Source: Odontesthes bonariensis
Taxonomy: Eukaryota; Chordata; Actinopteri; Atheriniformes; Atherinopsidae
Direction: 5' to 3'
Assembly (NCBI RefSeq): GCF_027942865.1
Contig: NC_134519.1
Coordinates: 23,966,248 to 24,030,247 of the forward strand
DNA length: 64,000 nt
Shown here: piece by piece, positions 11,401 through 14,400 of the stretch
Layout: each line of letters starts with the position of its first letter
Numbering within the stretch: the first letter of the stretch is position 1
The notes under the pieces: generated by a model
Seen by the model: the letters and a program-made list of their open reading frames with translations, nothing else
What the model was told of the DNA's origin: nothing
The model's database searches: none
Position numbers and translations under genes: made by a program

Positions 11401-14400
11401 TTTGCTCATAGATTGTGCCACACTTGTCTTCATTTGTGGAGCTACCGCTCATGTCATCTAACCTAAAAGATACCTGCTTGTTTGTGTGTATAGAAACAGC
11501 TCTCGGTGCTCTGGCCAGAGTACTGAGAGAGGACTGGAAACAGAGTGTTGAGCTAGCTACCATTATCATTTACATCTTCTTCTGCTTCTCCAGGTAACAC
11601 TCACTCACACACACTCACATACGGTGACACATATTTCTTCAATATGTCTAACGGTTATTTCTTATCTTCTTACATCTTTTCCTCCAGTTTTTCTCAGTTT
11701 CACGGAGTGGTTAGCCATTATAAAATAGGAGCGTTGTGCATGAGCGTAGTGGAACATGAGCTGAAGAGGCATGAAATGTGGCGTGAGGAGCTACGCAAGA
11801 AGAACAAGGCTTATATCTTTTTTTCTGCTGTCCTTCACCTCTTCAGTTTGAGCCGACAGTTACTTTTTCCTCCTCTCCTCCTGTTGTGTTTGTCTGACTT
11901 TCACCGAATGTTTTCTTTGACATTTTTTTCGTTTACGCGAGTCGGCACCAGAAAATGGCTCCCTAAGAAGAGACCAGGACAAAGCTCTGAGAAAGTACCA
12001 AGGTCTTCTGGCTAAGCAGGAGCAGCTGCTCAGAGGTAGGACCAGACTTGCAGTGGCTTTAAAAGCAGTGCCGGTATTTCTCTTTGCTATGACGTGAAAG
12101 CAGAGTTAATTTGTCACATATACTGAAATAAATTTTCCGAATAAAGTATTCACCTCAGAATGTCCCAGCAGCCTGTGTTATAAATGTTCTAGAACTCTCC
12201 CGCTCATGTAGAATGAACCCCAGTAACTTTACAGTAATGTTTCACCCCAAGCCCCTTAACCTCTCTCATTATCAACGCTTGACACACACATTAAGGAATG
12301 CTGAAAACGTGTTGCTTTTATTTTCTCCCATTCTCGTTCCTCTCCTCCTCCTGCCAGTATCTCTCTACCTCTTGCTGAACCTCGCTGAGGACACGAGGAC
12401 GGAGCTGAAGATGAGAAACAAGAACATTGTTGGACTGCTGGTCAAAGTTCTTGAACGGGATGATGAGGAGCTGCTTGTCCTGGTGGTGTCATTCCTCAAA
12501 AAACTCTCCATCTTCCTGGAGAATAAGAATGACATGGTGAGTGAAGGGACTGAGGGGACCTAAAATATCATCTTATACTTACAGTAGGTCCGTTTTTTTT
12601 TTTTTTTTTTTTTTTTTATGTGAGCAAACTGTGTCTACTAATTGGAGTACTGAAATGTGAAACCATAATTCTGCATTTTCACAAAGTACCATCTTTAAGT
12701 GACAGACAATGTGATCTTAAATTGTAGAAACTGTTAGTTGATAATTCCACACATCATCGTTCATACAGTAAGATTATACCAGAGTAATGACTTTAGATGA
12801 TAATCATTTTCAATACAATTTACAATAATCATTGGCTGAAATTCCATCATCGGAATAGTGACATCATGCCAGATGTCTGGCTGTGATTTTGTCATTATTA
12901 ATCAGTAGTTGTTATGACTTTAGCCTCATTGTTCTGTGGCTCTCTGCTGCTTCAGTCTCATTGTTGTGATGTAATGGGGTGTGTGTTTGGGACTTGCAGG
13001 CGGAGGTAGATACTGTGGAGCGATTGGCTCGCCTTGTTCCCTGTGAGCACGAGGACTTATTAAACCTGACTCTACGTTTGCTGCTCAACCTCTCCTTCGA
13101 CTCGGGACTCAGAGCCAAGATGGTGGAGGTTGGGCTTTTACCGAAACTGACTGCATTGCTGGGTAATGATCTACACTAAAAAAAAAAAAAGAAAAAGCAG
13201 TATACTTTTGCAGAGCTCTGCTTTCAGCCCAGTGGTGGCAGTGTCAGTGGGTTAGTCCAGTCCTTTGGTGGTGATCATTCATGATGAATCCCACTCACTG
13301 ACTTCCTCTGACATTACTGCCACCAGGAAGTAGACATTCATAGTTTTAAAGGAAATGTGTAACGATGGGAGTATTTCTCCTGTTATATTATATTGTCAGC
13401 TGTTGAGAGATCGATGAGTATGTGACTATTTTGTTGTATGTGTGTGTTTTATTGTCATGAAGGTGACGAGAACAACCGGCAGGTAGCCATGCGCATCCTG
13501 TACCATGTCAGCATGGACGACCGGTTCAAGGGCATGTTTGTTTACACTGACTGCGTACCTCAGGTACAGTGAGATCCTCTGAGATTATGAGTGCCAGAGA
13601 GTTTCAGATCCGTAGCTAACAAACATGCACATGTCTTGATGTAGCTAATGCAAATGCTGTATGAGCACGGTGAGGAGGAAATTGAAGCTGAGCTCATCTC
13701 TCTCTTCATCAACCTGGCTGCAAACAAGAGGAATGCACATCTCATGTGTGAAGGTATTTTACTTTTTCTATGAGTGGAGGCTGTGTGCTATTCAACTATG
13801 TCTGTACAGCACACAAGCTCTTCGTAAGAGAGTTGTCTGCCTCCCTTTGAATTGATAAATGTTTAACTGTTTTTCTGTTTTTTTTCCTTCTCTGTCCACC
13901 TGTAGGAAATGGACTGAAGATGCTCATGAAGAGAGCTCTGAAGACAAAAGACGGCCTTCTGATGAAGATGATCAGAAACATCTCACAGCATGATGGGACA
14001 ACCAAACCACTATTCATTGTGAGCTATATATAATGTACACAGTGTGGAGAAAAAAAAAGTACCACTGCTAAAAGTCTAAGATTGATCATAAAAAGGACTC
14101 ATTGGTTGAAAGTTTTAGCTTACTGTATGGGTCGGTCTATTGCTCAGTGGAAGATTTCAACGTTTCGTGGTGTTTGCTCCCCTCTGTCTCTGTCAGGACT
14201 ATGTGGGTGACCTGGCAGCGGAGATCCGCGCCGAGGAGGAGGAGGAGTGGGTTCTGGAGTGTCTGGGAACGCTGGCCAACCTCACCATCCCTGACTTGGA
14301 CTGGGAGTTGGTGCTGAAGGAGTATAACCTGGTGCCTTACCTCAAAGACCGACTAAAACCAGGTACTGATTAGATTCGGAGGTTTAAAACTGATGAAAAC

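Follow-up and report, generated by a model that had tools for sequence, protein, structure and literature searches.

A predicted minor-class intron with AT-AC ends in kifap3 of Odontesthes bonariensis, matched at the same codon in a second gene copy

The window, by which we mean the whole 64 kb stretch of DNA that was analysed (contig C19, 23966248-24030247; the genome searched comprises 945 Mb in 187 contigs), carries kifap3, a phosducin gene, exons of an olfactomedin-domain gene, a tRNA gene and a further open frame, with the following features:

2059-2134, forward strand: tRNA-Asn (GTT), upstream of pdc
4413-7267, forward strand: phosducin gene (pdc; Pfam Phosducin), coding at about 5632-5851, 5982-6094 and 7079-7267
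8471-16599, forward strand: kifap3 (KAP3, kinesin-2 associated protein), 20 coding exons, 778 aa, stop included (gene model, Pfam, PDB)
11688-11812, forward strand: kifap3 exon 7, ending ...AAG GCT T (gene model, alignment)
11813-11936, forward strand: intron 7, AT-AC, predicted U12-type, 124 nt, phase 1 (enumeration of placements; matched in position by an AT-AC intron of the C20 copy)
11813-11821, forward strand: intron 7 5' splice site ATATCTTTT, one mismatch to RTATCCTTT, at +6
11913-11921, forward strand: intron 7 branch site TTCTTTGAC, branch A at 11920, 16 nt from the intron end
11935-11936, forward strand: intron 7 3' splice site AC, the next AC downstream of the one within the branch site
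11937-12035, forward strand: exon 8, starting GC GAG TCG... (gene model)
15413-15521, forward strand: intron 16, predicted U12-type of the GT-AG subtype, 109 nt, phase 1, donor GTATCCTTC with one mismatch
15502-15510, forward strand: intron 16 branch site TTCTTTAAC, A 12 nt from the intron end
19123-20490, reverse strand: open frame of 455 aa just downstream of kifap3, acidic-rich by eye
42148-43480, forward strand: exons of an olfactomedin-domain gene (Pfam OLF)

The open frame on the reverse strand may represent the 3' portion of a gene resembling Niban. In the phosducin gene, residues 62-230 are encoded without a break in the C20 copy (26.36 Mb), as are residues 62-219 in a relative on C27, whereas the same region of the window copy is split by two introns, apparently with AG|GT at both junctions of each when judged by eye, which suggests either an intron gain in the window copy or a loss in both the C20 and the C27 relatives.

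The 20 exons of kifap3 were delimited by eye and joined by script, affording a product of 778 aa without internal stops that scored 1200.8 bits against the Pfam family KAP (PF05804) and, across residues 3-696, 1212.4 bits against Kinesin-associated protein 3 of PDB chain 9w9h_C. The kinesin-2 motor, which this product partners, serves cilia. No relatives of kifap3 were confirmed in prokaryote genome contigs or viral contigs, as expected for an animal gene. All 19 introns were compared with the U12-type consensus sequences, RTATCCTTT for the 5' splice site and TTCCTTRAY for the branch site, the latter expected some 10-20 nt upstream of the 3' end. Two of them, introns 7 and 16, stood apart from the rest with one donor and one branch mismatch each, while the remaining 17 showed 3-7 donor mismatches and at least two branch mismatches and look U2-type.

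In intron 7, the donor ATATCTTTT departs from the consensus by a T for C at +6 and the branch site TTCTTTGAC likewise by a single T for C. The intron ends in TTTAC, with the first AG ending 5 nt beyond this AC, and its branch distance of 16 nt compares with 11-12 nt in the other three minor introns identified in the two kifap3 copies, the branch site of one of which is doubtful. An earlier note on this DNA had given these same coordinates, donor, 3' end, branch motif and branch distance, all of which were reproduced here, and had further claimed that no other splice preserves the length of the protein.

This latter claim was borne out by the enumeration of possible placements. The spliced protein aligns with PDB chain 9w9h_C without a gap across the exon 7/8 junction, where the chain sequence is KKKKAVDEDLEN. 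A total of 870 donor/acceptor pairs with GT/GC-AG, AT-AC or AT-AG ends were tested between exons 7 and 8, and in 212 of them the frame stays open. Against the PDB KAP3, 11813-11936 gave the top alignment score (525, gapless), followed by an AT-AG pair (515), a second AT-AC pair with the same donor and acceptor 11948 (513) and the best GC-AG pair (11809-11941; 512), while the best GT-AG pair (11830-11941) reached 507. An AT-AG intron between exons 7 and 8 was rejected in this enumeration, as was retention of the segment as coding sequence, which shifts the frame and meets stops. When the 124-nt intron was slid from -18 to +18, one of the 37 gapless placements, that at shift 0, had GT-AG, GC-AG, AT-AC or AT-AG ends, and these ends are AT-AC. 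The more distant KAP chain 9ikb_G aligns too, but is gapped at this junction, so that it is only the close relatives that support the length argument.

Were the protein left out of account, the motif pair would be no proof of such an intron. A scan of both strands of the 64 kb, allowing at most one mismatch per part and 50-1000 nt between the ends, found five distinct donors with a matching branch motif, compared with a mean of 6.6 in 60 simulated Markov sequences, and one pair of the AT-AC type compared with a mean of 3.5. Other pairs within these limits have donors at 25414 and 36342 on the forward strand and one on the minus strand, a number within chance. Because the window contains no more motif pairs than chance would produce, the case for intron 7 is carried by the protein constraint and the duplicate described below, and it is these two, not the motif pair alone, that rule out a chance origin of the motifs. 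For a junction whose place the protein dictates, the simulations gave a rate of 0.0022 for a matching donor and of 0.0084 for a matching branch site, and multiplying the two, on the assumption of independence, gives about 1.8e-5.

A protein search of the genome with kifap3, in which all 32 candidates of the first pass were scored, returned at least 34 matches, comprising 19 to the window gene and 15 to a second gene, which occupies the minus strand of contig C20 at 35.399-35.438 Mb; all of them follow the two genes exon by exon, and no processed copy was seen among them. The C20 model comprises 17 exons and 16 introns, with introns 1, 18 and 19 lying outside it, and 14 of these 16 introns have at least four donor mismatches and look U2-type. 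The positions of introns 2-17 match between the two models, and the gene spans more than 38 kb on C20 (stretch 35398601-35438300) compared with about 8 kb in the window (8471-16599).

Intron 7 of the C20 copy (35430810-35431398, 589 nt) is likewise AT-AC and interrupts the same codon in the same phase as that of the window. It has the donor ATATCCTTC, reads ATATCCTTCA...TTCCTTGAC...TATCGTCAC and ends in CAC, and its branch site TTCCTTGAC matches the consensus exactly at 11 nt from the end. Enumeration of exon 7-8 pairs gave 526 for this AT-AC intron and 511 for the top pair without an AT donor, a GC-AG pair with added residues. Between the two copies of the intron, which differ in length (589 vs 124 nt) and in the exactness of the branch site, blastn found no match longer than 8 nt; the visibly kept part is thus what the minor spliceosome reads, namely the AT-AC ends and the U12 motifs.

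The two products share 72.9% aa identity (510/700), whereas identity to the PDB KAP3 amounts to 78.6% (542/690) for the window copy and 76.6% (521/680) for the C20 copy. As each copy resembles the PDB KAP3 more closely than it resembles the other copy, the duplication is old. A phosducin pair is likewise found on C19 and C20, although its C20 member lies 9 Mb from the C20 kifap3, and together with the old divergence of kifap3 this fits the teleost genome duplication, from which we infer that the two kifap3 copies stem.

The genome holds one match each above the Rfam cut-off for the minor-spliceosome snRNAs U11 (114 bits), U12 (123.2 bits), U4atac (83.2 bits) and U6atac (132 bits). The species' own U12 sequence GUAAGGAA can base-pair along the whole of TTCTTTGAC; the hexamer then contains one G.U wobble irrespective of which of the two purines is bulged, and bulging the A adds a second wobble. 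At the donor, both the AAAGGA of U6atac and the 5' end of U11 form pairs that begin at +4 or +5, extend to +9 and include a single G.U wobble, at +6. Since G.U pairing is kept, the departures of intron 7 from the consensus are of a tolerated kind. From what is known of the class, the donor would be recognised through pairing by U11 and TTCTTTGAC by U12, an A being bulged out; U6atac, brought with U4atac, would then displace U11, and the intron would be excised at the first suitable AC to give ...KKNKA|CESAPEN... in frame.

Several other readings of this junction were weighed. The AT-AC ends could be coincidental and the real intron a displaced U2-type one, either GT-AG at 11830-11941 or GC-AG at 11809-11941, both of which leave the frame open. 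The GC-AG donor AAG|GCTTAT matches the U2 consensus at 4/7 positions, equalling several accepted introns, but none of these matches lies at +3 to +5, and the GT-AG donor GCT|GTCCTT matches at 1/7 positions compared with 3-6/7 in the 17 accepted U2-like introns. Each would moreover demand a change in length, namely two added residues for GT-AG and a loss of three, with the product KKNKSAPEN, for GC-AG, that is seen neither in the PDB KAP3 nor in the C20 copy, where the best pair without an AT donor also scores below AT-AC (see above). A displaced intron is therefore extremely unlikely. We regard as practically negligible the reading of intron 7 as a U2-type AT-AC intron removed by the major spliceosome. 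Such introns are annotated, making up 0-0.03% of U2-type introns in three fish (PMC7367187 Table 2), but TATC at +2 to +5 of the donor is a U12 feature, the U12 branch motif is rightly spaced and that of the C20 copy is exact.

It is also conceivable, albeit highly unlikely, that both spliceosomes act on intron 7, either in a twintron-like arrangement (for twintrons, see PMC3564746) or with the window copy in the course of changing from U12 to U2. Compared with its C20 counterpart, the window copy shows an additional branch mismatch and a greater branch distance; it also carries a T at +6, and a frame-keeping GT-AG pair overlaps the intron; the donor of this pair is, however, very weak, both departures of the window copy preserve G.U pairing, and no GT-AG pair is found among the C20 alternatives listed (the best six, and the best three without an AT donor). 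On a related reading, which we consider unlikely, the window copy may be slowly losing its minor-class signals at donor position +6, in the branch hexamer and in the branch distance, while C20 keeps the branch consensus, with copy-specific retention or some GT-AG use as possible outcomes. If so, the two kifap3 copies would provide a natural test of how far minor sites may be weakened and still be tolerated.

Based on the splice sites, frame, phase, snRNA pairing and the AT-AC intron at the same codon on C20, we are close to certain that kifap3 holds, at 11813-11936 and bounded by AT and AC, a functional spliceosomal intron of the minor class (U12-type), in agreement with the AT-AC, minor-spliceosome class that the earlier note had assigned to it. 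As judged from its sequence, intron 7 is an old, ordinary U12-type AT-AC intron, presumably spliced as such, whose sites are slightly weakened in the window copy.

A second minor intron of the gene, intron 16, was absent from the earlier note. In the window copy it ends in CAG, and its C20 counterpart lies at the same codon with the donor GTATCCTTT, which has no mismatches. The best branch candidate of the C20 intron, TTCCTTATT, is without an A at the usual place; its branch point is thus less sure, and the putative U12-type class is assigned by the donor. Their presence in both copies indicates that introns 7 and 16 both predate the kifap3 duplication.

With two minor introns of pre-duplication age, kifap3 should depend on the minor spliceosome for its expression, and gene callers limited to GT-AG would be expected to misplace the intron 7 junction. 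KIFAP3 may be among the genes on human minor-intron lists. The literature searched, mostly free of subscription papers and without supplementary tables, held no relevant mention of a minor or U12-type intron in KIFAP3, although the intron may nevertheless be catalogued elsewhere; the word kifap3 is absent from the main texts of PMC9501576 and PMC13216214, which deal with zebrafish and ciliary minor-intron genes.

The rarity that the earlier note ascribed to AT-AC introns is right for introns at large, while within the minor class they are common, accounting for 22% of U12-type introns in zebrafish and 12% each in Tetraodon and fugu (PMC7367187 Table 2). In zebrafish, 612 genes together contain 662 introns of the U12 type (PMC9501576), and 91% of human minor introns are kept in zebrafish, as cited by PMC10639083. 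U12-type introns are further described as biased against phase 0 and clustered in genes (PMC7367187), and the presence of one AT-AC and one GT-AG minor intron in kifap3, both in phase 1, is in line with these published patterns. The general view of minor introns is left unchanged, as their clustering in genes and good conservation in vertebrates have already been reported (PMC7367187, PMC10639083).

Among known examples, the U12-type AT-AC intron of SMYD2 (ATATCCTTTA ... CTTTCCTTGACT ... AGCAC; PMC7367187 Table 1) shares with kifap3 intron 7 the AT-AC ends, the ATATC donor, the TTGAC branch motif and phase 1, whereas intron 7 has a T at +6 and a T for C in the branch hexamer when compared with this intron of another gene. 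A T at +6 is also found in the human UFD1 intron (GTATCTTTTT; PMC7367187 Table 1), which is nevertheless U12-type; it differs from kifap3 intron 7 in being GT-AG and in phase 2, and its Tetraodon orthologue is U2-type. Set beside these introns, kifap3 intron 7 appears as another, ordinary example of a known intron class.
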